DNA from: Serendipita indica DSM 11827
Taxonomy: Eukaryota > Basidiomycota > Agaricomycetes > Sebacinales > Serendipitaceae
Direction: 5' to 3'
Assembly (NCBI GenBank): GCA_910890315.1
Contig: CAJVGD010000025.1
Span: 222,501 to 286,500, forward strand
Length of the DNA stretch: 64,000 nucleotides
Both the position numbers and the translations under genes were made by a program. A model generated the notes under the pieces. It saw only the letters and a list, made by a program, of their open reading frames with translations, was not told where the DNA came from and did not search any database. Position 1 is the first letter of the stretch, and the number at the start of each line of letters is the position of its first letter. This document shows, piece by piece, positions 25,962-63,110 of this stretch.

Positions 25962-26164
25962 TTTTCTGGGCGCGTCGGGGGTGAAAAAAGGGAGCGTCGA
26001 AGGGAAACAAGGAGCGGAACAACTAGGCCGCCGGTAGTTTCGGCTGATGGGTCGCGCCGTGACATTTTGACGGCCTCAAGCTGTCCCTTAGCGGACCTTT
26101 GGATACTAGCGACTTGGTCTCCACTCCCACATTCCTTTTTATCCATTCTTCTTGTACAATCCCA
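25962..26164. promoter_or_regulatory. 203-bp divergent intergenic region between membrane-protein paralogues
   Basis: The two related membrane-protein genes start at 25961 (minus) and 26165 (plus), so they share this upstream region. It includes a pyrimidine-rich run just before the plus start (CACATTCCTTTTTATCC). No certain TATA box was seen. Confidence 0.55.
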
Positions 26165-29100
26165 ATGGAGGGCGGAAGCACCTCTTTCCAACAGGTTTCG
26201 ACAACAACCTCGAGCAGTGGCGGAAAGACGACAAAGACAGTCAAGACGACGACAACGACGACAAGAACAGAGTATGTGGTCCAGCAGTCCTCATCTTCTG
26301 TTTCAAAGAGCACCTACTCGCTCAGCTCGTCAGTCTCAAAGGGGTCCAGCCAGAGCCAGACAAACCTCAGCTCACCCCCCAGTCTTGGTATCAAGCAGTT
26401 TGGATCCAGCGACTACTTTCAAGTAGAGGAGATTGTTGAACAGCCAAAGATCTCGTTTCATCGCCAGTCCCGCCTAGTGACCAGCGCAGACACTAGCGAG
26501 TTCACCCTGGTCACTAGCGATGCTCAATCCGCCACAGAGTCTTTGACAGTCGAATATTCGTCTCGTCCGCGCCTCGAAATCACCGATAGCAGCCAGACAG
26601 TCGTGACTGTTCAAGACTCGTCCTGCCACACCGACTTTCTCACAATGTCCAATACGGACAACTTTGTGGTTACAGAAGTCGTCCAACTCCCCAATATCGT
26701 CCGCCCTCGCCTTTCCAGATTCACCACTAGCAACACTCTTGTGGAAACACACTCCTTTACCAAAGATGACGCCGAGGCAGTGGTAGTAGAACTACCCTCT
26801 CAGACGATCGTCGAAACTACACTCATCAATACTACTTCCTCCGAACCCTCTGCCACTATAGTCGAAGTCGAGACGACTCCGGCTATCACGGAAGTGGTCG
26901 AAATCTCATACAGTCACCCAGCCGAAACTGAAACCATTCAAATCTTCCCTACTCATGCCGTCGAAACAATCGAATCGACTTCGATTGTCGAGATACCGGC
27001 GGCAGAAGCCTCGGCAACGATTGTCCAAGTTGTAGAAGCACGCAAACCTGTAGTCGAAGTCTCGGCGGAAGAAACATCGACCACCATCGAGGTCGTAAAG
27101 CAGCAACCGGTCGAACGGAGCGATCATGCTATTACCGTCGACACCTGCCACGGTACGCCAACCGGACGCCGAATGTCTGATGCTGATGACTAATAGGGAC
27201 CGAGCTGATTGAGACGACTTTGACTCACCAGGATGTGTCCCAAATATCCAGTTCTGGTCGAGTGAGGGCCCTTTCTGGAACTACACACTCCTCGAATGAG
27301 GTCTGGGAAGTCGTAGAGGTTACCACTCCAACCCGACAGTACGCCGCCAATAATAAGCCCCATCCCTTCCCGCCTGTCAGCCGCCCGCGCGCCCTCACGT
27401 CGACAACCCGTGCGTCTACTGACGTCTTCGAAGTCGTCGACATGTCATCGACGTCTCAGTATGGCCGCCAGAACCCAGAACAGTTTTACCACCGGCTAAG
27501 CTTTAGTCAAAGTATGGGTGGAGTGACCGCTGCGTCTGCCTCTCAAAGCGAATTCGCCACTACGGTCGCCGGTGATTCTACTGAGCATCTGTGGTCCAAA
27601 TATCACTCCGACGAGCGAGTTCCACCAGTTCCGGCGCTTCCGAGACAATATCAGGAGCCCCTGAAACCTGTCGAGGACAAAGAAGAGGAATCCACTGTCA
27701 CCCCGGTGACCAACAGTCCGTACATCAGTCGCGCACCATCTGCGACCCCTCAGCATACAGAGGACCCACGCCAGCCTTTACGCCGTCCAAGCAACGCTGT
27801 CCCACCAGTCACTGCATCCGCTACATGCTGGGGCTACTGTCGTCGAGCAGAAAAGGGCGGCGTGCAGCCTGCAGAAGTGCAGTACCTTTCGTTGGATGGA
27901 ATGGGCATGTTCAACCCACTTTTCCGAATCCTGCTCATCGCTTTGGTGATTGTTATCCTCGTACTTGCCATGGCTGCGTTCCTCTATGGATACCTTCGCA
28001 TGTCCAAAGTCGAGTGGACGCGATGGATCATCATCAGCGCCGTTCCTCAAGGAAGCGTGCTGCTCATCACGTCGCTCGCATGCAAGCTCGTTCTCATCTG
28101 CATCCCTTTCCTTATGGCCATTGTCGCATACTACGTCGCCTGCTCCTGGGCCCGACAGAATGAGGCGGATGCTTCGCGCGGTGGTGCTGAGTCTGGAGAA
28201 AAGCTCCCTTGCGGATGTCCTATTCGTCGCGACGTTGCAGTCGAGATGGAGAAGAGGCAAGAAATGGACAAGGAGCAATATGGGCTTCTACTCAGTCTGT
28301 TCAAGAGCGCTACCATCTTCGCTCTCTGGCAAGGGCTCAAATACATCTTCAAGCCAACTTCTTCTTCCTCTCGTCAGAAAGCGTGTAGACAAGCCCTCTC
28401 GAGGCCGGTTATCAAGACGTTTTCCGTCCTCTTCTTCGCGATCCTTATCCTTTACGGCATGCTTTCTCTCGATCTCGCCATGCATCATCTGTCAAAGACC
28501 AAATACCTTCCGATCCGAGGTCTCGCACTCCCCATCCCACTCGCCTCGGAGAAGGATGCAAGGCTCTACGGACGCGAACTCAAAGAGGCATGCGTTCAAG
28601 ACGCGATGGCAAATGGAACTGCTTGCACTGTTGGTCCCGTAACTCTTGCTGTGGGTGGTGTAAGCGCGACAGCTAATAGCACTACCGACTATACGGAGGG
28701 AATGCTTACGCTGTCTGGACTATCCAAGACCAACGCAGTCGCATTCACCAACTATGCTCAAGCAGACGGTAAAATTGCCCAAATCGCTCTTCTTGTGGAC
28801 GCTTCCGCCACATCGGCCTCGTTGCTCGCCAAGAGTGAGGGTGAGGATAACGAATCATGGACGGCAAAGACGATTGGTATTTCCACTACCTGCGAGCTCA
28901 TTTCGCCTCATTGCGACACGGCTTCACTCTGCACGGCCACGCATTCGCCTCCGACAGCACACCTCGGTGGAGACGCCCCAATCGACTATGAGACTTGCAC
29001 GGCATATTCATGTGCCGCATCTGGATGGCCTGTGTACTGGGACATCGGACCGAGAAATACGACGGGTCTGTTCATTAGCGAGCCGCTCGAGGCTCGCAAT

Positions 29101-29835
29101 GAGGACTCACTCTACGCTCGCCAAGCAATTCCATCGCAAAGTGGTGTTGCTCGTGATGGAGGGTTCCGGTTCTTTGCTAGCCTGACGTCGTACGTTGATC
29201 CCTCAGTCCTTGCTACCGACTGTACCCGCACCTCTTCGACCACAGGCCTCTGCAACCAAGGCCGCGACGAAGGTTTCGTGTATGCAGGAGATAATACGCG
29301 CGCATGGGTTGGGTCGTACCGCCAGGTGATCATGGGTTGCAGTGTCCAAATGCTCAACGTCGAATACGATTACTTCAATGGTGAATACACCGTCCACAAC
29401 TCGACTGTCTCACAGGCCAATTCTACGGTCACATATGCCCTGAGCTCTGTGCTGTACACGAGCGATGCGCGTGTTACTGCACTAGGCGCGGCGCTGGGAC
29501 TCATGGCTGCAGGAAAGACCGCTAGTAGTGCCGGTGTCGTGTCTGCGCTTGAAGCCGGCGTGGCACGAGTCATGCTCGCGATGGGGCATAGTGCATTCGT
29601 ACCATCCTCTATCACGGGATTGCGCAAGATGCTCAGTCTTCCTGCAACGATTATGCCGGCACCACTTATTGCCGGATTCATTGCACTGCTTGTTATCTTC
29701 GCAATACTCGTGATTGCCGTTGCAGCCTTTGCGGTCCTCCATATCAATCGTGGACTGTGGACCGAAAAGAAGCGCATCGAAAAGGCATTGCAAAAAGCGG
29801 GAGAGCAAAACCATGGCAACGGATGCTCGACGTAA
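26165..29835 (+). CDS. Multi-pass membrane protein of unknown function with repetitive N-terminus (1,208 aa)
   Basis: Two exons (26165-27152, 27197-29835; intron 44 nt) give 1,208 residues. The first about 550 residues are Thr/Ser/Val-rich and carry imperfect repeats of an Arg-Leu...Thr-Ser...Val pattern, for example RPRLEITDSSQTVVTVQDSS, RPRLSRFTTSNTLVETHSFT and RPRALTSTTRASTDVFEVVD. Then come a hydrophobic helix (ILLIALVIVILVLAMAAFLY), a second (LLITSLACKLVLICIPFLMA), a third (FSVLFFAILILYGMLSLDLA), a Cys-rich, N-glycosylation-prone ectodomain (CTVGPV, CELISPHC, CTATHS) and a final helix (AGFIALLVIFAILVIAVAAF). The plan mirrors the divergent neighbour at 23607-25961. The role is unknown; a cell-surface or wall-sensing protein is only a guess. 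Confidence 0.8.
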
Positions 29836-36515: not shown

Positions 36516-37953
36516 CTAAATGTGGGGGAAGAAGTCTGACCATGCCACGTCTCGATATGCCTCGAGTGGAAGTGCTGCTAGCGTCACCAGTGCAAGCACG
36601 ATTGTTATGCCTCTTCCAACAAAGTAGAGGGGCGGTAATAGAAATAGGGAATCTGCGATCAAGACACCCAGCACCTCGGACAGTCTGTCGACTAGCAAAC
36701 TGAAGACCGCGACTACCACTGCTGCAGGTGGGACTACAGACATGACAATTGTCGCAAATCGCCAGAGAAACTGCATATGATCGGATGGAAATGGAGAGGA
36801 CCACGCTAGAAAATGGACAGCACCAAACAGTGTCCCGACAAAGACCGTGGTCAGAATGCCACCAAAATCGCTCACATTCCACTGTACTTTTTTGTACCCG
36901 GGGTGAAACATTGGAACTCGCTTCACACTCCGTAAGTCGATGTTCTCACCCTGAGCGCCCATGGCATACTGAAAAGCCATCCGCCAAAAGCCGGCTTCTT
37001 CCATCCTCTGCTTTAACCTCTCTTGCTCTCTTGTACGTTCTGGGAGTGTTTCATATACACGCACAGGGAATGTCACTCGGTATGGCTTGTCCCACCATGA
37101 GATGTACATTGCCACTGTGAGCAGGGTATAGCCAAGCGTAATGACCTCGAGCTCAGTAAGTGGCAGTTTGCTAACTTTCCGTGCAATACACTGAGTGATA
37201 AACCAGAGAGTCTGGACGATGACGAGAAACTTTGCAAGTCCATCGCTCTTGCACCTGTCTTCAAGGTCGGCAGTATTAGGGAGGCGCAGTTTATCAGTCT
37301 GGAGAAGACGACAGACGTCGAATTCATCGAGAGGGTGGATAGGATCTCCAAACTCCTCTTCAAATGGATTGCTCGGCTTTGTTCCTGGTGCACAGCTACC
37401 TCGACCGTCTCCCACTTCTACCGAGGAAGTTCGGACCGATAGGTTACTCTCCTCTGCGTTTTCCTTCCTAGTCTCAATCTGGTTCTTTAAAGACCCTTGG
37501 CTTTGTTTGAACAGATGAAAGCCACCCATGATGATGAAGAATCCTTGTTGGCGAGTAGCATCTTGTTACAAACGAGATTAGTACTATACAATGATTCCCT
37601 CTCTGAAGCATACCAATCTTCTTGGCTACACGGGATGCCGCAATGAACTGACGGACTGCAATGCCCAGAACCCATTCTGGAAATACTAGCGTGACAAAGA
37701 CTGGAGCCACGATGCATCGAAAGAAGGATCTTATCCAGATCTTGAACCGAGCCAAGTAACCCAAGCCTCGGGTGTCCACAGGCTCTGGGACATTGAGATG
37801 GAGGGCGACCCAAATGCACAGGAGGATGGTCGTGAGACAGCTGAAGACTATTCCAGATAGGCTCCTGTACTGATTTGCGCATGATGGAAGACATTCTGTT
37901 GTATTAGACGCGGCGCTGGCTGATAGGGAGTAAACGGCGACTGCGAGAGCCAT
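36516..37953 (-). CDS. Multi-pass membrane protein, paralogue 1 (461 aa)
   Basis: Two exons (37953-37614, 37561-36516; intron 52 nt) give 461 residues. An N-terminal signal-like segment (ALAVAVYSLSASAA) is followed by CLPSC, a helix (GIVFSCLTTILLCIWVALHL) ending NVPEPVD, then VLGIAVRQF, a hydrophilic loop with HPLDEFDVCRLL, FLVIVQTLWFITQCIAR, LTELEVITLGYTLLTVAMYI, WWDKPYRV, and three C-terminal hydrophobic helices. I recognise the pattern as a basidiomycete-expanded membrane family of unknown function. The intron follows the same codon as in the second paralogue at 61690-63110, which has the same order of motifs. Confidence 0.8.
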
Positions 37954-41427: not shown

Positions 41428-43655
41428 TCAGACGAGATCGCAAGCATGCGGTCTGAGGGCACAATACTCTGGCTGGAGTGCCACAGCTTGAATGCCTCTC
41501 TGAACCATCCGTCCTCTCAAGTCGTGCAGCCTTGGAAGTGCCTCCTTCACGTTGGGCTTTTGCCCATTTGGATGGGTTGGCCCTGTCCAAAAGAGCTCGG
41601 CAGAGGCAGCCGCACGCGGCCAGAGAGTGCTATCGAGCGTGAAAGGGTCAGATTGCTCCGCCCAGAGAAGTTGCTGTCCCCCTAGTACGAGCGTGGATTG
41701 AGTTGTTGTCAAGTTGGCAAGAGGGTCAAATGAGTATGCCTGGCAATGCGCATTAGTAATGGAAAGAGTAGTAATGATGGTCCATTGAGGGAGAGAATCG
41801 ACGACATACCTTTTGCCACGTTTTGAATGGATCACACCACGAGTTCCCATCCGGAAACGCACCGACCCAGGCACCATGTCCACAGTCCAAATAAAAGTAA
41901 TCGCTGGGTGCGTGTACAATCTTGAATCCTTTTTCGACGACGGCCTTGGCATCGGCAGACGAGATCCATACCCTGATTCGTGGCAATAGTCAGCGATATA
42001 GATATTACGGACGCAAGTGGAACCTCACAAGACGACTGTATCTTTGTGGAGACCCAAATCACCGTGATCTAGCACCATCTCTTGCCATACAACAGGCTTC
42101 TTCCCCGCTTTGACCAGCACCTCATGCGTGCGATTCGTGAATGTGGCCAAGGCTTGCTCAAATGTCTTGCCGCTCTCCGTCAAAGTTTTATTGACTACCG
42201 GATCTTCCTCATAGCATCGCCGATTGATCTCGTCACCACCCGTACTAAAATACTTGCCAGGAGTATGCTTGATCGTAGAAGAAAAGAGTCGTTGAGTGAA
42301 ATTGACGACAGTTGGTTCGGTAAGGCGAAGTTGCCCTGCAGGCGGTTCGTTGGCATAGGTCGTCCAGGGAGTTTTCTCGAAACAAGCGATATACTCTGGA
42401 TGAGAGTGGTGAATAGCGGCTGTGTGGCCTGGCGTGTCAATCTCAAGCATCACGTCTACACCGCGCTACGAATTTGCCCAAGGTCAGCGTTTGTGTAAAG
42501 ATGGAATCAAAGATGACCTACAGCTGCTGCAAACGAGATTACGTCGTCCAAGTCTTTCGTCGAGTATTGTTTAGATGATGAGTAGGCTCCCTTGGCCACC
42601 AGCTCGGGGAAATCAGGAAGGTTGAGCGGGAAGCTACCGTCCGTCAGAGCGGAATCACTATTTGAACAGTGAGATGTACCTTTGTGAGTCCACAATGTGC
42701 CAATGAAATATGTTCATCTATAGTCGGCGATCAACTCTCCATTGAAGAGGCACGCTGTATGCACACCTTTGTGAGTTCCATGGCAGATATTGTTCTTTTG
42801 ATGTCTCCGATTGGAAAGCTTGGAAGTCACTAAGCTTACGCCGTCACAAGATGGAGATTCACTTACAAGTTCCTTGCCGTATCCAGCAATAACCCGCGCC
42901 ATTTCTACATCATCAACGCTCAGTCTTAAAGAAAACTGTAAACTACGCACATAGTACGGCTCGTCGAGAATCTCAAATGGTGCTTCGACAGTATATGTCC
43001 AATTATCCCACGTGTACCACATTTGGCTGAACGTTGTTAATCCACGGAGCAAGCCGAGTGTTGTATTCGCACGTAGACGGGCCTCAGAGCCGTCGGAGGG
43101 AACGGTGAGGGTGTACGATTCGTCGCGCTCTTCCGCAGGTAGAGCGGTGTTGGCTGCAATGCTCTGCAGGTGATTGCATTTGTGTAGTTGTCCGTCGTGT
43201 TCATATATTTCGCAGTGTGGAAAGCCGTAGGGGGTTCCCCCAGAATCAATATCATTTTCAGTATTCTCAAGCAAATGGTCATGATGGATGACGAGAGGGT
43301 TTACCATCACTCGATTTCCATCTCCTTCGTTCATGCTTCTATTGTGATTGGTATTGCTGATAATCTCCAGTGCCAACCGTTTCAACCTCTGCGCACGTCC
43401 CAAGTCGACATCATCACCCGGCCCGCGACCAACGACAAGGCGCTGCATGTGATCATGCTTGAGCACTGTCATTGTGCGCCCTACAGCATCATATAGATCC
43501 TGTGGTACGCCATGAATTGATGAAGTGTCGATGCGGAACTCATTCGCCAGCGTAAGAGCTGTCGAACCGCTCTGGAGGTGTCGTGGGATGGGCCAAAGTG
43601 CATTGGTGATGCTGAAAAAGCATGCGAACACAAGAATTAGAGCTGATTCCTTCAT
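41428..43655 (-). CDS. Secreted beta-N-acetylhexosaminidase, GH20
   Basis: Eight exons (43655-42951, 42904-42867, 42818-42767, 42717-42680, 42633-42522, 42465-42029, 41972-41810, 41739-41428) give 618 residues. A signal peptide (KESALILVFACFFSITNA) precedes the N-terminal GH20 beta-like domain. The catalytic barrel has WRGLLLDTARNFFP, MNIFHWHIVDSQSFP, RGVDVMLEIDTPGHT, the acid pair in FSTGGDEIN, YFYLDCGHGAWVG, SWCDPFKTWQK and LGGQQLLWAEQSDP. The enzyme releases N-acetylglucosamine from chitin oligomers outside the cell or in the wall. Three internal exons are only 38-52 nt, clustered around the HWHIVD motif, a pattern worth knowing for automatic annotation. All introns are GT-AG and 46-70 nt. 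Confidence 0.95.
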
Positions 43656-43957
43656 TCTTGTCTACTGAGAGTCGATGACGGTTATAATTGAAGACCGTGG
43701 TCCAAATGTAGGGTTCAAACGCGCGGAACGAAGTGTCGAAGGGAATGGAGTATATTATAGGTATTCGTGGACTCAGAATCAAGTGCCAATAGGGGAGCGA
43801 ATTGGCAAATTATGTCCGAAGCAAGTCGACGCTCGGTCCAAAAACTAGGACTCCATATGCCTCGCTGCTTCTCGCCTTCCCAGCTGCGTGTTCCGACTTT
43901 ACCCGTTAGATTGTTTACATTAGCTCATGATGGCCAAGAAATCAAATCACATAAGCA
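43656..43957. other. Intergenic, hexosaminidase promoter side
   Basis: 302 bp lie between the hexosaminidase start and the Ent3-like stop. No gene was seen. It includes AT-rich TATATTATAGG-like sequence near 43750, about 100 bp before the hexosaminidase ATG, which could be a core promoter. Confidence 0.4.
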
Positions 43958-47804: not shown

Positions 47805-49353
47805 CTACTCGAGAGCGGTGAAGTACGCCGATCTAATGGGTACCATCTCGATACCTTGATACGTTTCATCAGAGCGATACGTCGCGTTCTGCTCCTCGCT
47901 CTCCACCTCCATTTCATGATACAGTGCCAACAATGCCGGATCCAGTGAGAACAATATGGCGTTGAAAAGTCCGACCAGGCCATTGAGTGTAGCGAGCATT
48001 CTCGCCACATTGTCTGGAACTCCAGAGGCGGCTCGAGGGTATACTCTGTAGAAAATGTCCTGAATGACACTTGGAAGAATGCAGATTGCCGGTATGAATA
48101 TGTATCCGAGCAATCGCATCGCAAGAGCCCGCATGGCCAGCGAACGTCGTAGGAGTGTAGGACGTTGGGATGACTGGGATGCTGACCCACCGTGAGTCGC
48201 TGACGAGCCGCGCATGAAATTTGACCAGAAATTGACCCATGCGATTGGTGAAATCGGCTCCGACACATTCTCTGATTGATTGAACGCCGCATCTCCAATT
48301 ATCAACGGTGTAGGCCCAAAGAGGCGAGGCAATTGATCATCCGCCATACCTAGACCGTCTCTAATGGCGGGGCTAGAGTGTCCAATTGACATCTGATGAG
48401 AGGTATCTGAAGGGGAACCATCAGAGGCGGATGTACTGGAGTGCCCGCGAGATGCATGAATGGAGAAGTTTGCATCATCATCAGGCGCTGATTCGAATTG
48501 CGTACTAGACGCAGTGGAGTCTATACTCCAAGGAAGCGATGTAGCCAGGTAGTTCAACTCGGAGGTCTTGGAGAAGACGACCCAAATGATCGTAACTGCG
48601 GCTATTACCAAGTACACCGTGACGGCCAGACACCATATCCCAAACGTCAGCATATAGCTTATGACAACCTTGCGTTGATGTATTCCGTCCGATGCATACC
48701 AGCAAAAGTCGTAGTTTGCATCGTAGCCATATACTCCGGCGCTGAGCGCGGGGATGCAGATGAAGGCGGAAACGATGATGGGCAGGAAGATGTAATACTT
48801 GAGTGTCGTGCATCCTGGACGCTTGGAGAATACAAAGACGAGTTGAGTGTTGAGGGCGATGCAAAAGGAGTAGAAGATGGAAATGAGGGTGGGGAATGCA
48901 TAGAAGAAGCCTCCCCAAAAAGCACACGCAAAGCCTTTCAGGTCAGTGTATCCAAAGAGGTTTATCGCCTGGAAATCATTAGTCACCATCTCGCCGGTGT
49001 TGGAAGCGTACATGGAGGACGGCGTCTGCAGCGGCCATTGAAACAGCAAGCACGAGTGAAGGACGCTCCATAATCCGCTGGTTCTGGCGAAGGAAGATAA
49101 AATATGTCCCTATCACTAGAATACATGCAACGAGTGAAACCGAGTTTGTGACTTGGAGTGGGATATCATTGGTGGTAGGTGCATCGCGGATGGGGATAGT
49201 ACTATTGGTTAGTACCGCAGTAGAGTCAGTGAGATAGGGTGTTGCTGTGGCAGTAGGAATCGGGTTGACGACGGTAATCAGGACTATTGAGGTGACCACT
49301 TGAATCGGTGCTCCGTCAGGAGGAAGGTCATATCCGGAGAGCCCACTGCTCAT
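47805..49353 (-). CDS. Seven-transmembrane receptor-like protein, tandem copy 1 (501 aa)
   Basis: Two exons (49353-49012, 48968-47805; intron 43 nt) give 501 residues. After a Ser/Thr-rich N-terminus come TM1 (VSLVACILVIGTYFIFL), ERPSLVLAVSMAAADAVLH (TM2 with an Asp), FFYAFPTLISIFYSFCIAL (TM3), LKYYIFLPIIVSAFICIPAL (TM4), an ectoloop DFCWYASDG, TM5 (GIWCLAVTVYLVIAAVTII), a long third loop, and TM6/TM7 (LLGYIFIPAICILPSVIQ, MLATLNGLVGLFNAILFSL). The layout fits a fungal G-protein-coupled receptor near the cAR/Git3 group, but this is an inference. The C-terminal tail is about 100 residues shorter than in copies 2 and 3 and ends soon after MVPIRSAYFTALE. Confidence 0.75.
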
Positions 49354-49949
49354 TGTGAAAGGTAGCTGGAGAATATCTATGCTAAACAGGCGAAGTTTTA
49401 CTATGATGTGCTACTGAGGGTTGAGATAAACGAAACAGGACACCTGGGGAGAAGCAAGAGGCAGCAAGTAAGGTTCCGAGGAGCCCTTAGTACGGGTCTT
49501 GATCCGTTGCAATATAATTGCCAGGAACAAAGGAGTAACATCAGGGACCAGGGCGCAGAGTGTTCCAAATTTAAGACCATTAGAGAATTTGCGTTTTGTC
49601 AAGTTGAATCCGAGAGTTAGATATGAGACCGACAAGAGCTCTTGGCTCGATGAGAGGATCCATGATCAGAGGTTGGGGGCACCAGTACTGGAGGCCGTTT
49701 GGACAAGCAAAACAGCCTATAAACAAACGAGAGACTGATTGTGTCAAGTTAGGCTGGAAAGATGGCGTAACATTTTTTGGACACGATCGAGGTTCACTTG
49801 AAACAGGGCAAACCTCCACTTCGCCACAGGGGCGCACGTTAGCTTATATCCACACTTCTGAAAGCCGATACAGATGAGTATATGCACAAATTACGGTGAA
49901 TAGAGATCACGAATACTACTGTTGAGCCATCACAAGCAACGCCTAACTT
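49354..49949. other. Intergenic region partly duplicated upstream of receptor copy 2
   Basis: The segment around 49700-49840 (AAACAGCCTATAAACAAACG, GATTGTGTCAAGTTAG, then a run near CGATCGAGGTTCACTTGAAA) resembles 52290-52420. The open frames here on both strands look like shadows of this repeated non-coding sequence. No gene is supported. Confidence 0.55.
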
Positions 49950-51798
49950 CTATAACCCCCCGAGATATCTCTCCAGCCTCTCAAGGTCTTTATCTGCTGT
50001 CGAGTCAACCTCCACGTCCACCCGGATCATGATACCTGGATTAGAGACTGAACCACTGTTCCCATACGCTGCGATAGAGCGAGGAGATGGTAAACCACGC
50101 TCGCTCTTCTTGACTTTGTTCCCCACAAGAATTGGTGTAAGAAACTTGCCTGCCCGCACTTCGACCTTGGTCCCGTTACCCTCATCCACTTGGCTTGTAC
50201 TCCCCAGTTCCAGCTCTCCCTCGGCGGTGACAAATGTTTGTGTTTCATGGATATCACCCTGTCCACGTTGCCTCGAGGAACCGTGTCTCTCCACGCCTTC
50301 GGATTGTCGCGGGCTCCCCGAGCCAGGCGACTCTGGAGGTGTAGTATACACAGTTCCAGTGGGGGCCATTTCAATATCTCGGTGTGTCTGATGGCCCATT
50401 GCCTTCTTCTCCCTGCGTGCCATCTTCATTTGATGGTACAGCGCCAAAAGCGCCGGATCGAGTGAGAACAATACAGCATTGAAAAGCCCGACTAGGCCAT
50501 TCAGCGTAGCGAACATGGTTGTCACACTGTCGGGGACTCTGGAGGCAGTTTGAGGAGAGACTTTGGATATGAGATCTTGAATGACACTTGGTAGAATGCA
50601 GACGGTTGGTATGAGAATGTACCCGAGTAGTCGCAGGGCAAGAGCGCGCATGGCCAATGAACGTCGCGAGAGGGTGCCAGTTGGATGGTGGTTCGCAACA
50701 GGAACAGAGCCGCTATGTGCTGTCGAGTATGTACGCCTGTACTGTGACTTCGATTTGACCGGAGTGATTGGAGTGGCCGGCTCTGTGTCGACTTCAGACT
50801 TGTCGAACGGCGCACCTCCAACTGCCGACTGCGTAGGCGTGAAGAAGTGAGTCGGTTGATTGTTCCCCATACCTAGGTCGGTTGGTGCGGTGTATTTCGA
50901 GTGCCCGCTAGACGGGCGAATCGAGATTTTTGGGAGGGTGCCAGGAGCTGAAGCGGATGGTGTGTGAAGCGCGCTTGAGCCTAAAGTCCTGGAAAGCGTC
51001 GTGGCTAGTTGATTCATTTTGGAAGTCTTAGAGAAGACGACCCAAATGATCGTCATTGCGGCCACTATCAAGTAAACCATGACGGCAAGGCACCACATCC
51101 CAAAAGTAAGGATGTAACGCACAACGACTTTGTGCTGATGCGTACCATCCGACGCGTACCAGCAAAAGTCATAGCTCGCATCATAGCCATATACTCCTGC
51201 ACTGAGCGCTGGAATACAGATAAAAGCGGAGAGGATGATTGGGATAAAGACATAGTACTTGAGCGTTGTAAACCCCGGACGCTTGGAGAATACAAAGACG
51301 AGTTGAGTGTTGAGGGCGATGCAAAAGGAGTAGAAGATGGAAATGAGAGTGGGGAATGCGTAGAAGAAGCCTCCCCAAAAGGCACACGCAAAGCCTTTCA
51401 GATCAGCATAACCGAATAAATTGATTGTCTGGATATTGTTAGATATCACCTCGCTCATCCTGGGAACGTACATGGAGGACGGCGTCAGCAGTGGCCATTG
51501 AAACGGCGAGCACGAGTGATGGGCGCTCCATGATCCGCTGGTTTTGACGACGAAAGAAGAAGTATGCTCCTATCACGAGGAGACACGCAAAAAGCGAAAA
51601 CGAATTCGTGACTTGGAGTGGTATCTCGTTGGTAGTCGACGCTTCGACAGCCGGAGAAGTGCTGTTAGCTGATAATACAGTAGATTCCGAGAAATAGGAT
51701 GTTGTGGTTACTGAAGGGACTGATGTGACGACGCTGAGGACCATAGAGGTGACCACTTGGATAGACGTTCCAGATGGAGTTTCATTTTCGGAATCCAT
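49950..51798 (-). CDS. Seven-transmembrane receptor-like protein, tandem copy 2 (601 aa)
   Basis: Two exons (51798-51472, 51428-49950; intron 43 nt) give 601 residues. All seven hydrophobic segments are present and very similar to copies 1 and 3: SFSLFACLLVIGAYFFF, ERPSLVLAVSMATADAVLH, FFYAFPTLISIFYSFCIAL, YDASYDFCWYASDGTHQHK and LRLLGYILIPTVCILPSVIQ. The third cytoplasmic loop (about 90 residues) and the tail are Ser/Thr/Pro-rich with many candidate phosphorylation sites. The tail ends DLERLERYLGGL, a motif shared with copies 3 and 4. The shared end suggests a conserved function of the tail, which copy 1 lacks. Confidence 0.78.
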
Positions 51799-52688
51799 TA
51801 TTTATCTGGAAAAGATAATTGGGGTATAACTACGCCAGATGGGCAAAGATTTATCGCGAGTGCGTCGGGAATGAGTGACAGAGGACCGAGGCGAACGAAC
51901 CACTGGTGGTGGAGGGGAGCAAAGCTACAAGAAGCTTTTCAAGCAGGCATAAGTGCACGATTTGCTTCGAAGTAATATAAATGCCAGGAGGTGACGGCGA
52001 AAGATCCAGACCGGAGCACGGGCAGCAAGCCACAGGGGACGGAGTGTTCCAAACACATAGCGGAATTTCTCTTTCTACTGAAGTTGCACCCGAGCTTCCG
52101 TGAGTCATCTGTCATTACGGCCATTATACCCGACTGAACAATCATGAGGGAAAGGGTGGCGGAATTCTGGAAACACCTTGAGAAGTCCCGGAATCCGAGA
52201 TTCGACGATTGAGAGACGAAAAGTAGCTGGTTGATGTGCGATGAGCGGGCCCACGATCGTGAGGCTACCGCAGAATCCCAGATGGAGAGCCGTGTGGAGA
52301 GGGAAATAGCCTACAAACGACGGAGGAACCGATTTGTGTCAAATTAGAGCTGGAAAGGGGTGACAAGGTGGCAGACTCTCGGACGCGGTCGAGATTCAGT
52401 TTGAAACGGGAGCAACACCTGACACACCCCGGGGACGGAGTCGAATCCGCAATAGGGGAGTACTACAAAAGATAGTCAGAAAGATTCTCCGCGCATTTAT
52501 CCTAACTGCCCATGCATTCTGGATCTCTTCGAGTCTCATTTCCGTGAGCTTTCCGCGACAATGAGTCCATGGGAAGATAGTTGGAAGGCAAAACGCGACG
52601 TACAGCTGGGTATATGTACAAATTAAGGCGAATAGCGATCACGGATGCTACTATTGGAAAATCACAAACCAGGACTCTGAATAGTCGT
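51799..52688. other. Intergenic region with promoter-like segment shared among receptor copies
   Basis: The segment 51960-52040 (AATGCCAGGAGGTGACGG..., GCACGGGCAGCAAGCCACAGG) resembles 54750-54830 upstream of copy 3, and 52290-52420 resembles 49700-49840. The duplication therefore carried flanking DNA with it. No gene was seen. Confidence 0.55.
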
Positions 52689-54565
52689 CTATAACCCCCC
52701 AAGATATCGCTCCAGTCTTTCGATGTCCTTATCCCTTGTGGTATCGACCTCGACCTCTACTTGGATGACGATACCGGGACTGGACAGGGCGGCACCACCA
52801 TTTCCATACGAAGCGATGGAGCGCGGAGATGGCAAGCCACGCTCGCTCTTTTTGAATCTGTTCCCCACGAGGATTGGTGCGAGGAACTTGCCAGTCCGAA
52901 CTTCTACTTTGGTCCCGTTGCCCAGATCGGTCTGACTTACCCCTGCACTATCTGATTCCCCTTCGGCAGTAACAAACGTCTGCGTTTCGTGAACGGCATT
53001 TGGGCCACCTCTCCCGTGGTGTCTATCAGCAGACGAGCCCTCTGCGCCGTCGGAGTGGGATTGTCGTGGACTCTTTGAGCCAGGCGATTCCGGAGGTGTG
53101 GTGTACACTGTCCCAGTGGGTGCCATCTCGATATCCCGGTGCGCCTGACGACCCATTGATTTCTTCTCCCTTCGTTCCATCCTCATCTGATGATACAACG
53201 CCAAGAGTGCTGGATCAAGCGAGAAAAGTATTGCGTTGAACAGTCCGACGAGACCGTTCAATGTGTCTAGCATTGTCGTCACGCTGTCGGGAACTCCAGC
53301 GGCGGTTTGTGGCGAGACTTTGGACAAGAAATCTTGTATGACGCCTGGAAGGATGCAGATAGTGGGGATGAGGATGTACCCGAGTAATCGAAGCGCGAGC
53401 GCGCGCATGGCTAACGAACGTCGAGAGAGTGTACCGGAAGGATGCTGAGCTGCCGCAGAGACTGACCCACCGCTCTGCGTCGTCGAGTAGGGCCGTTTGT
53501 ACCTCGGATGTAACTTGACCGGCGTCATTGGCGTGACTGGCTCTGAGTCGAATTCAGATTTATTGAACGCCGCACCTCCAATCGCAGACTGCGTGGGTGT
53601 GTAAAAGTGTGTTGGTTGATTGTTTCCCACGCCTATATCTTCTGGGACAGTGTACTTGGCATGTCCACTAGACGGACGAACAGAGATCTTGGGGAGTGTA
53701 TGAGGGCCAGATGCAGATGGTGTACGAGGCGCACTGGAGCCTAGGCTCCTCGAAAGCGTTGTAGCCAGCTGGTTCATCTTGGAAGTCTTGGAGAAGACGG
53801 CCCAAATAATCGTCATCGCGGCTATGATTAAGTAAACCATAACAGAGAGACACCACATCCCAAAAGTGAGGATGTAACGCACAACGACTTTGTGTTGATG
53901 CGTCCCATCCGACGCGTACCAGCATAGGTCATAGCTCGCGTCGTAGCCATACACGCCGGCACTGAGTGCTGGAATACAGATGAAGGCGGAGACGATGATG
54001 GGGATAAAGACGTAGTACTTGAGTGTTGTAAACCCCGGACGCTTGGAGAATACAAAGACGAGTTGAGTGTTGAGGGCGATGCAGAAGGAGTAGAAGATGG
54101 AAATGAGCGTCGGAAAAGCGTAGAAGAAGCCTCCCCAGAACGCGCACGAGAAGCCTTTGAGGTCGGCATAACCGAAAAGGTTGACGGCCTATATGTCTGT
54201 CAGCAGCATTAATACTCGTGCCAGAGACATACGTGAAGGACTGCATCTGCCGTAGCCATTGAAACCGCGAGCACGAGTGATGGACGCTCCATGATCCGCT
54301 GGTTTTGACGACGAAAGAAGAAGTATGCCCCTATTACAAGGAGACATGCGACAAGAGAAAACGAGTTTGTGACTTGGAGTGGCACCTCGTTGGTGGTTGA
54401 TGCTTCGACGGTGGGTACAGCGCCATTCACCGACGCCGCGGTAGATTCAGCGAAAGAGGACGTCGCGGTTGCAGAAGGGATGGAGGTAACGATACTAAGG
54501 ACCGTAGACGTGATCACTTGGACAGGCCCTCCGCCCGGGGGTGGAGTGCCTTCTGGAGAAGCCAT
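52689..54565 (-). CDS. Seven-transmembrane receptor-like protein, tandem copy 3 (610 aa)
   Basis: Two exons (54565-54233, 54188-52689; intron 44 nt) give 610 residues, the longest of the group. The N-terminus starts MASPEGTPPPGGGPVQVITS. Seven hydrophobic segments match copies 1 and 2 almost residue for residue in TM2, TM3 and TM4 (IPIIVSAFICIPALSAGVYG). The third loop, with GGSVSAAAQHPSGTLSRRSL, and the tail are the variable parts. The tail ends DIERLERYLGGL. It lies head to tail with copies 2 and 1. A trimeric-G-protein-coupled role is inferred from topology and is not proved by a motif. Confidence 0.78.
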
Positions 54566-55202
54566 GGTACGTAGAAGAAGAAAGCAGAGGTAGAACTTGA
54601 TTTCATTAGCGTCCAATCTCGTCATTGACGGGTCGGAAACGACTCACAGAGTGTTTAGGTCCAGAAAGCGGCCGTGGGGGAGAGCAAAGCGTAAGAAAAA
54701 AGGCGTCGTGAAAATGATCCGCTTATTCCCATTTCCAGGTTTGGCGCAATGGAAATGCCAGAGCTGAAGGTGTCAACCAGGGATCGAGAGCGGAGCATTG
54801 GCAGGTAGCGCAGCGGCAAGCCACAGGGCCGGTAAGTTTGCAAATCCCCTCCAGAATTTCGTAATCCACTTGTTTGGGGCCCATTAAGCGCCGCAAACGA
54901 GCTCATCTCCAGCAAAGAAAGGGTGGCGGCGGGCACCTAAGGGCACAAAATTGAGCCAGAGTGCAATGAAGAACTGAATATAGATTGTGTGTATTATAGT
55001 GGGAAGGTCCACGATCTCGAGCTCCTGAAACCGGGAGTAAAAGGCGTTTATGCCGCGGCGTGGTGGATGCGGTCAGATGAGGACGGAGTACCATGGAGGT
55101 AATTGAGCCTTGTTCCAACTGTTACAGGCGTCTAAAAGTTACAGTTTCACCACCGAGCACGACATGAGCACAAACCGGGACAAGCGGGAGTAGGACGGAG
55201 GT
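54566..55202. other. Intergenic, receptor copy 3 promoter
   Basis: This contains the GCGGCAAGCCACAGGGCCGG segment shared with the region upstream of copy 2. The remaining stretch up to the histone-fold gene's stop at 55203 shows no gene. Confidence 0.5.
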
Positions 55203-56557
55203 TCATGAATCGGGGTTCAATCCTGCTCCACTTGCGCGCGTTCTTCCACGCCGCAACTTCTTTGCTTCTTGGGAAATTTCTCCACTAGCCCCGTCACTCG
55301 CACTGTAAATAGTCCGTCCCTGAAGGTTTCCAGCATCAAACGGTGAATCATGTTTCTCTATTGGGCTGGTCGTAGATGTTTCCGGACTTCCATCGTCACC
55401 AATCTGTCCCGCTGAGAGGGGAGCGCGAGCGGGTGGAGGAAGTGTGGCGGGTGTAAGCGGTTGTGAGTGTATACTAGGGCCGACCGTAGGCGCAGACATA
55501 TTTGCCGACGTAGATAGAGGTTTGGTTTTCATGTCTTGGGTCGTCGGTAAAGGTGCCCATCTTAGGTTATTCCGATCAACTCCAGGTGGCACCTGGAAGA
55601 ACATACCTGGTGGTGGCGGCATAGGTAGATTCTTGTAATCAAATGCTTTCGGAACCGCCGCTGTTGGGCCGGCGGATCCACCTGCAATAGGGCGAGGCTC
55701 GCCGTTTGCCTTTTTCGCATTTGGCGCAGAACGACCCTCTCGTGGAAGCAGCATCCTAGGAGCAGAGTTGGTGGTCGTGGAACCGGTGTGGAGTGGTTTG
55801 TGAGGCTGAGCAGTGTGGAGCTGCCGGAAATGCTCGTGGATACGCTGGATGGACAACTGCCTCGGGTTTTGGTGTCGTATAGTATCCTTGTGTTCTCGTT
55901 CCTCCAGGGCTCGTGACAGTGGAACGGTTGGCGGATAAGGTCGCTGAGAAATGAGAGGGAGGGTGCTGCGGCAACAGAACGGGCTGTAAATACAGTACTC
56001 AGTACCATGTGAGTTACAGGGCGAGACGTGGAGTACATACCAATATCTGGGACAGTAATCTCCCTTGGATCCGACGTCTGGTCTGCATCCAACGTAGCGC
56101 GTGTAATTCGACGTGTTATCTCTTCCTATTCTCATATTGTCACTGGTGATCGAGGAAAAAGGTGCAGAAACGCGTACAGCGGCGAGAGCGAGCAGATAGA
56201 CGGCCTCTGTGGAAATCGTGGCAGAGTCGTCTAGCAAAGTATGTGAGCGAGCAGAATGTGGATGTTCACTGAAGACTGACTGTCCATCTTGACAATCTTC
56301 TGCACCCGCGACAGACGAAAGCTCGCTGGCTCGTCGCTCAGAGCAATTGAAGTCGTCGCAGACAATTCTCGCGCATTTTGGGACGTCGCAGTCGTCTTTT
56401 TGGGTCCTTTGGGCTGCTTTCGCTGTCGATCTGATGCCGCAGCCGCTCTGCCCGTCGCCGGTAGAGGCCCAGCAGCGGCGTCTGGCATATGCTGGTCAAT
56501 CTGCATCGCTTTTCTCGTCCGTGTTTTGGAGCCAGTCTCTGCAGAAACAGAGGCCAT
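55203..56557 (-). CDS. Histone-fold protein, Dpb3/CHRAC-type, with a frame ambiguity
   Basis: Four exons begin at 56557, 56230, 56125 and 55983. A basic Ala/Lys-rich N-terminus leads into the histone fold: RLSRVQKIVKMD (helix 1), TISTEAVYLLALAA (helix 2), ITRRITRATLDADQTSD, then PDIARSVAAAPSLSFLSDLI. This is the CBF/NF-Y-like fold of DNA polymerase epsilon subunit 3 and chromatin-remodelling partners. A Pro-rich tail follows (PMPPPPGMFFQVPPGVDRNN). Read with the expected splice site, the exons are one base short of an open frame. The break falls near 55935, between SFLSDLI and TVPLSRALEERE. A donor 4 nt later (56036) would restore the frame but replace the conserved helix. So either a single-base indel or alternative splicing is present. 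Confidence 0.65.
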
Positions 56558-57113
56558 GGCTGTCTGCGCTCGTCTGCAACGAGCAAAGGACCAAAGTGTG
56601 GAGACACTTGGCCACCGACAACATGGGCCGCCCATGCATGCCAGCATCTAAAATTCTCAGAATATTCGTTTTCATTCTTTATAAAGCTAAAATGTGATTA
56701 TTATCACAGAATATAGGCAGCCGGACTTGTAGGACATGTCTAGGCCTAGCAATTGCCATCCAGACTCTGCTTATATGGGTCCAGAACAAAATATGGTACC
56801 GAATAACGTGATTTAGACTCGAAGTGCGATTGCTGTCGCTCGCCCGAGGGCGGCGACGGCAAATACCATGTCAAAGCGAAGCGAGCTTATTGGGTGAGGA
56901 TGGTACGGATATTACTGCGGGTACGAGAACCCACTTTTCAAGCTGCCAAGTCTAACAGGCAGATGGACCGTTTGACAGGATAAAGTCATACCTTTCATCT
57001 CAGCCACAATCCCGTCGGAGCAACGATAATCGCGGAAGTCAAGTACGTCCTTATATATCGGGTGCTTTATGCTATGTCGCTGCCCCAGGATTGCTCCCTC
57101 ACCTCTTGCTCTC
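56558..57113. promoter_or_regulatory. Divergent region between histone-fold gene and receptor copy 4
   Basis: This is a 556-bp intergenic region between divergent genes. A GC-rich near-palindrome (CTGTCGCTCGCCC, GAG, GGCGGCGACGG) at about 56831-56861 could form a hairpin or serve as a symmetric binding site. Numerous open frames on both strands over 56290-56700 are shadows of the histone-fold gene's first exon. Confidence 0.4.
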
Positions 57114-58478
57114 ATGTCCACATCCGACCCCTTTGACAATCTCGAACCCTCCACCACGTCCATCTTGCCAATCCAGATAACCAACAGTATCTCTCTGGTC
57201 GCCTGCATCTGTGTGATCATTACCTATGCGTGGTTTCGGCGCCATAACTCTCGCCTGCTAGAGCGTACGTCGCTCGTACTCGCGCTTGCTATGACTATTT
57301 CAGACGGACTGCTTCACGTAAGACTGTATCTAGCTGGCCGCGACGCAAGAGCTAATCACATGCAGATAATTAACCTGTTTGGATATTCCGACCTTCCACA
57401 CAACGCCATCTGTGCCATCTTTGGCGGGTTCTTTTACGCGTTCCCTACCCTCGTTTCAATATTCTACTCCGTTTGCATCGCCCTCAATACTCAGCTCGTC
57501 TTTGTCTTCTCCAAGCGACCAGACGACTCGAGTATCAAATACTACCTGGGGGTTCCCATCCTGCTCTCACTTTGCATCTGTGTTCCCGCTCTCGCCACTG
57601 GTGTCTATGGCTTTGACGAGAGCTGGAGTTTCTGTTGGATAGCCACAGATGGTAGGACACGCAAAGACATTCTTGTCCGATACATCCTCACATTTGGTTT
57701 TTGGTGCCTCGCTTCCATCCTCTATCTCATCATCGCCGCTCTTTCCATCACTTTTGCTGTCTTTTCCGCCAACTCGCGCCTCAACAGGCTCGCATCCGGT
57801 CTCTCCCACCATCCCGACAAGGCACCCAACGAAGAGGATCACCGGCAATCATTTCTCCCAAGAGTATCTCCGACGGGTACTCTCTTTTGGTCCGCCTTGG
57901 CCGATCGCCGTTTGTCCATCGTTCCTCGACGGAGCGAAACGCTGTCGCGTCGGTCTCTCGCAATGCGCGCACTCGCATTTCGGCTTCTCGGATATATCAT
58001 GATCCCAATGTTTTGTATCCTGCCGGGGGTCATCAAGGATCTCGTCTCGAAAGTGAATCCGACAGCCATTGAAAACTTGCCGAGCCAAGCTACCACCTTT
58101 TTCGACACGCTCAACGGCTTCGTCGGCCTGTTCAACGCAATTCTTTTTGCACTAGATCCAGCGCTTCTTGCACTGTATCGGAGGTTGAGGACGGAGAAGG
58201 AGGAGCGGGTCGAGGTTCCGTTGCAGGATGCAAACGCTGGGAGTGAACGGAGTCCCTCGATTGCGGGGTCTGTGGTGCCACCACAACTCGAGACACCGCA
58301 AAGGGTCCAAGTTCGTCCCGGGAAGTATCTGACTCCCATAGCCGTTGGAGATATGTGGACCAAAGCAAAATCCCAATGGAGCCCAACGTCTCCAACAATC
58401 ACCGGCATTGTCGTTCGTGTAGATGTCGAGATCGTTGACGACCTCGAACGATTGGGCGACTATCTAGGCGGACTATAG
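57114..58478 (+). CDS. Seven-transmembrane receptor-like protein, divergent copy 4 (438 aa)
   Basis: Two exons (57114-57317, 57366-58478) give 438 residues. The intron is 48 nt, lies after the same GLLH/AVLH codon as in copies 1-3, and can be read through without a stop. The N-terminus is short, with no Ser/Thr-rich leader. Segments are ISLVACICVIITYAWF, ERTSLVLALAMTISDGLLH, FFYAFPTLVSIFYSVCIAL, YLGVPILLSLCICVPALATG, an ectoloop SWSFCWIATDG, FGFWCLASILYLIIAALSI, LLGYIMIPMFCILPGVIK and FDTLNGFVGLFNAILFAL. The tail ends DDLERLGDYLGGL, as in copies 2 and 3. It is the oldest-diverged member of the cluster and lies on the opposite strand. Confidence 0.8.
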   Translation: MSTSDPFDNLEPSTTSILPIQITNSISLVACICVIITYAWFRRHNSRLLERTSLVLALAMTISDGLLHVRLYLAGRDARANHMQIINLFGYSDLPHNAICAIFGGFFYAFPTLVSIFYSVCIALNTQLVFVFSKRPDDSSIKYYLGVPILLSLCICVPALATGVYGFDESWSFCWIATDGRTRKDILVRYILTFGFWCLASILYLIIAALSITFAVFSANSRLNRLASGLSHHPDKAPNEEDHRQSFLPRVSPTGTLFWSALADRRLSIVPRRSETLSRRSLAMRALAFRLLGYIMIPMFCILPGVIKDLVSKVNPTAIENLPSQATTFFDTLNGFVGLFNAILFALDPALLALYRRLRTEKEERVEVPLQDANAGSERSPSIAGSVVPPQLETPQRVQVRPGKYLTPIAVGDMWTKAKSQWSPTSPTITGIVVRVDVEIVDDLERLGDYLGGL

Positions 58479-61689: not shown

Positions 61690-63110
61690 TCAGATGTGGG
61701 GGAAGAAGCTCGACCACTCCATGTCTCGATAGGCGTCAATTGGGAGCCCGGCAAGCGTCTTCAACGCAATCACAATGGTTATACCTCGCCCAATAAAGTA
61801 GATGAGCGGAAATAGCAGGAGGGGTAGCACAAGTAGACGAGCTGCGCCGAAGCACTGGTCCACAATCAAAGCGGCGAAGAACAAGCCTAAGACTGCTGCA
61901 AATGGCATCACAGCTATGATCATCGTTGCGAATCTCCAGAGGTACTGCACATGGATAGTCGGAAAGGGCGATGACCACGCAAGGAAATGGACAGCTCCAA
62001 AGAGCATCCCTACAATGATTGTAGTTACTGGGGCAACGAGATTGCTGACATCATCCATTCCACTATATCCCGAGTGAAACATGGGAACATGCTTTACACT
62101 CCGTAGGTCAACATGCCCTCCCTGAGTGCCGATGGCATACCCAACGACCATCTCCAGAAAGTTGAGTCCCTTTGTCTTCCTCTTAAGTCTCTCTTGCTCT
62201 TTTGTACGCCTGGGAAGTGGCTCATACACGCGCACAGGGAACGTGACGCGGTATGGCTTGTCCCACCATGCAACATACATGGACAGGGTGAGCAGAGTAT
62301 ATCCGAGGGTGACGACTTCAAGCTCCGTAAGTTGAAGGTTGTTAATTTTTCGTGCAATACACTGGGTTATGAACCAGAGTGTTTGTGCTATGACGAGGAA
62401 CTTTGCAAGTCCGTCACTCTTGCACTTGTCCTGGAGCTCTGCAAAGGTAGGAAGAAGCAGTTTGCCGGCCTTGATGAGGCGCCAGACATCAAATTCATCA
62501 AGAGGATGGACGGGCTCTCCAAACGCCTCTTCTACATTGATCGTCTGGTTGCTTGCCGTATGGCCAGATCTGCCGTCTCCTCCCTCTACTGCTGATTCTC
62601 TGACTGGTGAACAAGCTTCCCCTCCTCCCCCTCCTCCAGAACCAATCTGATATCCTTGGCTCCGTTTGAAGAGATGAAAGCCACCCATGATAATGAAGAA
62701 CCCTTGTTGACGAGTGCAGCCTGGAAACAGATCAGTCGGTACAGAATGAGAATCACCTTCTGTGACGCACCAATCTGCTTGGCCAGTTGAGTGGCCTTGG
62801 TGAATTGAAGAACCGCTATACCCAGAACCCATTCAGGGAACAGCAGTGTAACAACAACCGGAACTATATTGCATCCAAAAAACCACTTGATCCAGGTCCT
62901 GAATTGACAGAGTCTATTCAAGCCTCTGGTGTCCACAGGTTCGGGGACATTGAGGTGGAGGGCTACCCAGATGCACAAAAATATGGTGGTGATACAGCTC
63001 AGGACAATTCCGGGTAGGCTCCTGAACTGATTGGCGCATGACAGGGGGCATTCTGTTGTATTTGAAGCAGCACGGCTGGACAACAAGTAGACGGCGACCA
63101 GGGATGTCAT
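61690..63110 (-). CDS. Multi-pass membrane protein, paralogue 2 (456 aa)
   Basis: Two exons (63110-62771, 62720-61690; intron 50 nt) give 456 residues. It has a signal-like start (TSLVAVYLLSSRAA), CPLSCANQFRSLPGIVLSC, CIWVALHLNVPEPVD, VLGIAVLQF, CTRQQGFFIIMGGFHLFK, HPLDEFDVWRLIKAGKL, FLVIAQTLWFITQCIAR, LGYTLLTLSMYVAWWDKPYR and three C-terminal hydrophobic segments, the last ending MEWSSFFPHI. This is the same order and intron site as paralogue 1 (36516-37953), in the same orientation and about 25 kb away. The function is unknown; the family is expanded in basidiomycetes as far as I recall. Confidence 0.82.

Follow-up and report, generated by a model that had tools for sequence, protein, structure and literature searches.

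Four adjoining two-exon genes at positions 47805-58478 of a 64,000-nucleotide stretch of the Serendipita indica DSM 11827 genome (here called the window; contig CAJVGD010000025.1, C25:222501-286500, in a 24.7-Mb assembly of 55 contigs) were found to belong to an old, constrained family of receptor-like proteins with a genuine C-terminal signature. The family comprises at least six genes, and its members are probably plasma-membrane receptors of the G-protein-coupled receptor (GPCR) type that form a divergent branch nearest to the cyclic AMP (cAMP) receptor-like receptors (class V, family E). Copies 1-3 lie head to tail on the minus strand and copy 4 lies on the plus strand (Table 1), so that the positions, strands and copy number given in an earlier note on this DNA proved to be right.

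The genome was searched with copy 4 and with the most distant member of the family, both to E 10, and only the best candidates were scored. Two unlinked paralogues were obtained, which are named here after their contigs: C44 (at 646 kb, 504 amino acids) and C15 (at 253 kb, 586 amino acids). A further weak place on contig C44 (L022/L025, E 0.098) was rejected as a member, as it appears unrelated to the receptor family; its reading frame is presumably that of an ERO1-type oxidoreductase. Copies 2 and 3 are 81% identical, copy 1 shares 65% identity with copy 2 and 64% with copy 3, and copy 4 shares 51-54% with copies 1-3. C44 is 44-48% identical to the four cluster copies and C15 33-37% to the other five members. 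In an unrooted tree, the split between copies 1-4 and the pair of C44 and C15 had a support of 83, and that between copies 1-3 and all other members had a support of 100; the branching order inside copies 1-3 was supported only at 57. The local expansion of receptor-like genes suggested by the earlier note is supported.

All introns were predicted from the sequence, and the count of one intron per cluster copy rests on open reading frames. In each of the four copies the intron has GT..AG borders and lies in TM2 (the second transmembrane helix; TM1-TM7 below), directly after AVLH in copies 1-3 and GLLH in copy 4, in phase 0 and at alignment column 115. This agrees with the earlier reading of an intron behind the same codon, and column and phase were the same in six of six family members. 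In copies 1-3 the reading frame itself demands the intron, since its length is not a multiple of three; the intron of copy 4 is open in frame at 48 nucleotides and was therefore inferred from homology. C44 and C15 have in common a phase-1 intron in TM4 that is absent from the four cluster genes, and each carries one third intron at its own separate place. Because the tree splits copies 1-4 from C44 and C15, the difference in the predicted TM4 intron amounts to a single change, either a loss in the cluster or a gain in the C44/C15 branch. The TM2 intron and the C-terminal tail are found in the unlinked C44 and C15 as well; on these gene models both traits thus predate the cluster and are not markers of it.

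By hydropathy, copy 4, C44 and C15 are predicted to have seven membrane segments, and copies 1-3 to have an eighth in the N-terminus that is about as strong as the weakest helix of these copies. The three inner loops are net positive in all six members, and hydropathy and loop charge alone give the seven-helix, N-terminus-out arrangement of GPCRs; a lack of seven predicted helices, which according to the earlier note would have spoken against receptors, was not found by hydropathy. A Cys in TM3 and a Cys-Trp in the second outer loop (ECL2) are invariant in the six proteins, corresponding at residue level to the Cys pair of GPCRs with its predicted bond. Further invariant residues are an Asp in TM2, a Pro in TM6 and N-G..G.F in TM7. 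With seven helices and a GPCR-like anatomy, the description of the genes as receptor-like is upheld. Its addition that the transmembrane parts are nearly identical holds for copies 1-3 (72-100% identity per helix) and fails for copy 4 against these (52-88%). As had been noted, variation is strongest in the N-terminus, the third inner loop and the mid-tail (53%, 43% and 32% identity between copies 1 and 2). Copy 1 also departs from copies 2 and 3 in its third outer loop, where identity over 17 columns is only 47%; the second outer loop has 82-95% identity among copies 1-3.

The six proteins were then compared with 24,736 Pfam models to E 10, a search in which the HMMER filters drop most matches above E 0.1. 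Six families were listed, namely PalH for three of the six members and YnaM, DUF3671, DUF1616, FtsL and EhaL for one member each, the last five all far below the cut-off where shown. The models of the 17 fungal GPCR classes in Table 1 of PMC13308352, as given in the accessible part of that paper, are not among these six families, and STE3, DUF6533 and DUF6534 matched none of the six proteins. In the genome, STE3 was detected at 7 places (17 matches), none of which corresponds to the cluster genes. DUF6533 gave 57 matches, some of them grouped locally, on C1 (around 2.40 Mb), C11 (around 0.65 Mb) and C33. Since STE3 and DUF6533 were detected elsewhere, the genome searches can see known classes.

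To place the family among known receptors, a helix-core profile of 267 columns from the six members was compared with five references (cAR1, GCR1, Gpr1, rhodopsin and Ste2), and the scores were set against shuffles that keep local composition (windows of 8, 12 and 20; 1000 each). Against cAR1 the profile scored 51.0. The shuffle means were 28-30, and of 1000 shuffles 1 attained the real score with window 8 and 0 did so with windows 12 and 20; the alignment covers TM3 to TM6 and takes in KYY as well as the loop Cys-Trp. Expressed as z scores, cAR1 reached 5.0, GCR1 1.7, Gpr1 1.5, rhodopsin 1.3 and Ste2 0.3; six other membrane proteins or parts of such from the same genome gave -0.8 to 1.7, with 0.5 and -0.8 for two STE3 places. 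Four members were also tested singly against cAR1 (z of 6.2 for C15, 5.0 for copy 4, 3.3 for C44 and 2.7 for copy 2), and for all four cAR1 was the best of the five references. When one member was left out of the core profile, z with cAR1 was 4.5 (without copy 4), 3.5 (without C15) and 4.7 (without C44). BLASTP yielded some pieces in register, with residues 14-160 and 391-466 of C15 aligned to 12-151 and 206-278 of cAR1 and residues 24-226 of copy 4 to 27-211 of GCR1. These comparisons argue with moderate weight for a far branch of the cAMP-receptor-like receptors. As the Dicty_CAR model was tried and did not match, the likeness to cAR1 is a lead and not a proof of membership.

A number of observations weigh against the placement. 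The five reference sequences are approximate; three of them were checked in Pfam and recognised as expected, cAR1 and GCR1 with 604 and 56 bits for Dicty_CAR and Gpr1 with 297 bits for Git3. No Pfam GPCR model, including Dicty_CAR and Git3, matched any of the six proteins to E 10, so that the profile search proposed in the earlier note, run here with Pfam, gave no receptor family to go with the receptor-like anatomy. Dicty_CAR found nothing in the genome, but was silent in control genomes too. With a full-length profile of the six members, 1128 of 2000 shuffles reached the real score for cAR1, possibly an effect of the third loop and tail, which cannot be aligned and would dominate such a profile, and a profile of copies 1-3 alone gave a z of 0.3. 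C44 scored nearly as high with rhodopsin as with cAR1 (66 to 68; z 3.1 for rhodopsin), and reversed Gpr1 reached 44.5 with the core profile. No BLASTP piece had an E better than 0.03, and some pieces with comparable scores were out of register. The accepted pair GCR1-cAR1 reached a z of 16, far above the 5.0 of the family, and single rhodopsin and Ste2 gave 2.4 and 2.9 with cAR1. The tail near the membrane is net negative in copies 1, 4 and C44, which breaks the positive-inside pattern. Structure prediction was of low confidence: two AlphaFold runs with seven shallow rows, in which copy 4 kept its open intron (adding 16 residues to TM2) and the other copies were entered exon by exon, produced seven long helices in order at a poor mean pLDDT (predicted local distance difference test) of 46 and 49. 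In a Foldseek search with the second, low-confidence model, none of 104 PDB matches to E 10 reached E 0.001.

The first three Foldseek matches were to the neurotensin receptor NTSR1 (best E 0.25, probability 0.82), and 24 of the best 50 of the 104 matches were GPCRs, including Ste2, the rest being varied helical proteins; query TM-scores were 0.36 or less in these best 50. The fold search thus agrees with a receptor fold for the modelled chain and proves nothing. Searching the PDB by sequence gave two chance matches with four members and none with six.

With the class V receptors D. discoideum cAR1 and Arabidopsis GCR1 the family shares the seven helices, the TM3 Cys, the ECL2 Cys-Trp, a TM4 that begins with KYY, a YI in TM6 and a weak sequence similarity that is partly in register; with GCR1 it also shares GLFN(S/A)I in TM7. 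Unlike cAR1 and GCR1, which pass Dicty_CAR, the family has no match to this model; its third inner loop is long, and its C-terminus bears a conserved motif. Published accounts differ on how far class V reaches in basidiomycetes. In the accessible part of PMC12842992, which classified 28,294 fungal GPCRs, class 5 is absent from Basidiomycota, and the available text of PMC4246466 counts zero class V receptors in six basidiomycetes (four smuts and two rusts); PMC13308352, in its accessible part, assigns Gpr4 of the basidiomycete Cryptococcus to class V and notes that limited identity to cAR1 was the basis on which this class was defined. As a basidiomycete family with features like those of cAR, the present one offers a concrete candidate for this question. 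Like SNB1, a DUF6533 protein that its authors put outside the GPCR classes (PMC10949477, accessible part), and the DUF6534 proteins, which the accessible part of PMC12842992 proposes as a new class, the present proteins are basidiomycete seven-helix proteins of unknown function that may be discussed as receptors; unlike these, they have no Pfam match to either domain. PMC12842992 further grouped fungal seven-helix proteins not identified as GPCRs into 1969 clusters, and the present family may be in one of its unnamed clusters. In the open-licence literature, judged by title and abstract start and without gene identifiers, no paper on the family was found. The STE3 pheromone receptors resemble it as fungal seven-helix receptors and differ in that their matches lie elsewhere in the genome.

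Other explanations of the family were weighed against a cAMP-receptor-like GPCR. The proteins might be a seven-helix sensor or scaffold other than a GPCR, such as a pH sensor of the PalH/Rim21 kind whose tail would recruit an arrestin-like or other adaptor. PalH is indeed the only seven-helix sensor model that touches the proteins, in three of six members and at best with E 0.037; this best match has 13.5 bits where the curated cut-off is 34.1, copy 1 is at E 2.4, and copy 4, C44 and C15 have no match to E 10, which makes such a sensor unlikely. We regard a seven-helix small-molecule transporter or exporter as rather improbable. Seven helices alone are no proof of a receptor, and Ostalpha/DUF300, PQ-loop and RTA1 proteins are or may be transporters; the models of these three, like all known seven-helix transporter models, are absent from the six families listed up to E 10, where most weak matches are dropped by the filters. 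Membership in a known transporter family, which the earlier note had named as an objection, was accordingly not detected in Pfam, and the TM3 Cys with the ECL2 Cys-Trp is a receptor trait that counts against transport.

A distant carbon-sensing receptor of class III (Git3/Gpr1) is about as improbable as a transporter. Classes III and V have a general layout with a long third inner loop in common, as in the present family, and the genome has no Git3 place over the cut-off, only a weak one (E 0.106) in an exon-by-exon search that a split gene could escape. Against class III, neither Git3 nor GPR_Gpa2_C matched any of the six proteins, although Gpr1 passes both, and Gpr1 was not clear of shuffles, with the z of 1.5 given above for the core profile and -0.6 to 1.7 for the four single members. 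The least probable of the alternatives is a basidiomycete seven-helix family of its own lineage, in which the likeness to cAR1 would come from helix composition only. The absence of a Pfam match, a similarity short of standard thresholds and the wide background in the controls speak for it; that cAR1 was the best of five references for each of the four tested members, with some aligned pieces in register, speaks against it.

The earlier note had described a tail of the type (D)LERL(E/G)(R/D)YLGGL in copies 2, 3 and 4 that is absent from copy 1, and this is what the sequences contain. C44 ends in VLIQVEVQVNRDDDIGRLENYLDGL and C15 in LQVHVQVNVTQRVMKRQSRVELMENWLSGL, so that the C-terminus of five of the six members consists of an alternating V.V.V stretch and, behind it, (L/M)E.(Y/W)L.GL, with G for E in copy 4, and the motif, conserved and unnamed as had been proposed, is supported for the family. 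The end of the tail is more conserved than its middle in all ten pairs of the five tail-bearing members (79% against 73% identity for copies 2 and 3; 25-71% against 12-28% in the other nine pairs), from which it follows that the C-terminal end is selectively kept at the level of the predicted proteins. For the last 11 residues, helical hydrophobic moments of 0.45-0.69 were computed, without a baseline, and a short helix is placed at the C-terminal end in the low-confidence AlphaFold model. The frame of copy 1 closes at an in-frame stop where copies 2 and 3 read through. A stretch of 23 nucleotides just past this stop is 87% identical to copy 3 (BLASTN, E 0.001 against one short subject); BLASTN found nothing to copy 2 there, though the multiple alignment lines up both, and the similarity then fades. 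With an in-frame stop and residual similarity behind it, copy 1 probably lost its tail by truncation, and copy 1 and copies 2 and 3 make a natural pair without and with the motif.

Synonymous divergence (dS) and the ratio of nonsynonymous to synonymous divergence (dN/dS) over the whole gene were 1.18 and 0.10 for copies 2 and 3, 1.10 and 0.20 for copies 1 and 2, and 1.14 and 0.20 for copies 1 and 3. A recent duplication of copies 1-3 is ruled out by these dS values. As TM1-TM5 had a dN/dS of only 0.04-0.07 among the same copies, the near identity of their helices is, by this codon comparison, due to purifying selection and not to youth. In every region measured among copies 1-3 dN/dS was below 0.46, with a maximum of 0.457 for copies 1 and 3 in the third inner loop. 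Mid-tail values against copy 4 were 1.0-1.4, on 35-38 poorly alignable codons and at a dS of 1.1-2.1. These values give no support to diversifying selection or ligand diversification among copies 1-3, and with the second outer loop as similar as it is, the earlier expectation that ligands and signalling partners diversify found no support either. The divergent third outer loop of copy 1 speaks in favour of some change on the outside of the predicted receptor; outer loops were not given separate dN/dS values. A hint of local gene conversion was obtained in the TM3 stretch of copy 2, where synonymous sites are unusually alike: a run of 14 fourfold sites is identical between copies 2 and 3 (P 0.0046, 10,000 shuffles), the P values for copy 1 are 0.045 with copy 3 and 0.089 with copy 2, and 71 identical nucleotides are common to copies 1 and 2.

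For a GPCR related to the cAMP receptors, a working model can be drawn up. The Ser/Thr-rich N-terminus would be outside and the C-terminus inside, a small ligand would be bound in the helix bundle, and the receptor would switch a G-alpha protein. G-alpha gave 59 matches at about 22 places in the genome, some of them close together on C40 and C44, which was counted in favour of receptors; this is many for a fungus, and the partner would be one of these. The hydrophilic third inner loop and the tail may carry regulation, and the C-terminal strand with its amphipathic helix (xVxVxV...LExYLxGL-COOH) may dock to a partner in the cytosol or to the membrane face. Copy 1 stops short of this docking element; it might still bind ligand and be trafficked, coupled or switched off differently. 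Tentatively, the family could represent a basidiomycete class outside the 17 published fungal classes, that is, a far cAMP-receptor-like branch missed by the models, which has a strand-and-helix docking motif of its own, underwent local expansion in a mutualistic root endophyte and shed the motif in one copy. For a root symbiont with so many G-alpha places, the genes offer a defined starting point for the sensing of plant or soil cues. Words beginning with "GPCR" or "G-protein" do not occur in the accessible text of PMC3192844 on the genome of Piriformospora indica (now Serendipita indica).

Table 1. Predicted features of the receptor-like gene cluster (positions in the window)
Feature	Position	Strand	Remark
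Copy 1 exon 1	49012..49353	-	N-terminus, TM1, first part of TM2
Copy 1 intron	48969..49011	-	43 nt, phase 0, after AVLH
Copy 1 exon 2	47805..48968	-	501 aa protein; early end at in-frame stop, without tail motif
Copy 2 exon 1	51472..51798	-	
Copy 2 intron	51429..51471	-	43 nt, phase 0
Copy 2 exon 2	49950..51428	-	601 aa protein
Copy 2 TM3 stretch	51267..51347	-	hint of gene conversion (fourfold-site shuffle)
Copy 2 tail motif	49953..49985	-	LERLERYLGGL
Copy 3 exon 1	54233..54565	-	
Copy 3 intron	54189..54232	-	44 nt, phase 0
Copy 3 exon 2	52689..54188	-	610 aa protein
Copy 3 tail motif	52692..52724	-	IERLERYLGGL
Copy 4 exon 1	57114..57317	+	
Copy 4 intron	57318..57365	+	48 nt, phase 0, open in frame; inferred from homology
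Copy 4 exon 2	57366..58478	+	438 aa protein
Copy 4 tail motif	58443..58475	+	LERLGDYLGGL

According to the accessible part of PMC3192844, a different C-terminal motif, RSIDELD, occurs in 29 of the proteins annotated in the 25-Mb genome. When the present assembly was searched for a degenerate form of RSIDELD followed by a stop, 18 sites were obtained (11 forward, 7 reverse; 0 when read backwards), which lie on C29, C13, C5, C14 and C50, with 10 of the 18 on C29.

Several other genes were noted in the window. The receptor cluster is flanked by two membrane proteins that are 61% identical to each other, at 36519-37565 (-), with only DUF389 below the cut-off, and at 61693-62832 (-), with no Pfam match at E 0.01. 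Two divergently oriented, distantly related large membrane proteins (92/375 residues identical) are encoded at 23610-26075 (-), where FAM176 is touched below the cut-off, and at 27190-29832 (+). Pieces of a Sen1 helicase (SEN1_N, SEN1_barrel and AAA_11) were found at 5590-9663 (+), and the N-terminal part of a beta-acetylhexosaminidase (Glycohydro_20b2) at 42717-43661 (-).

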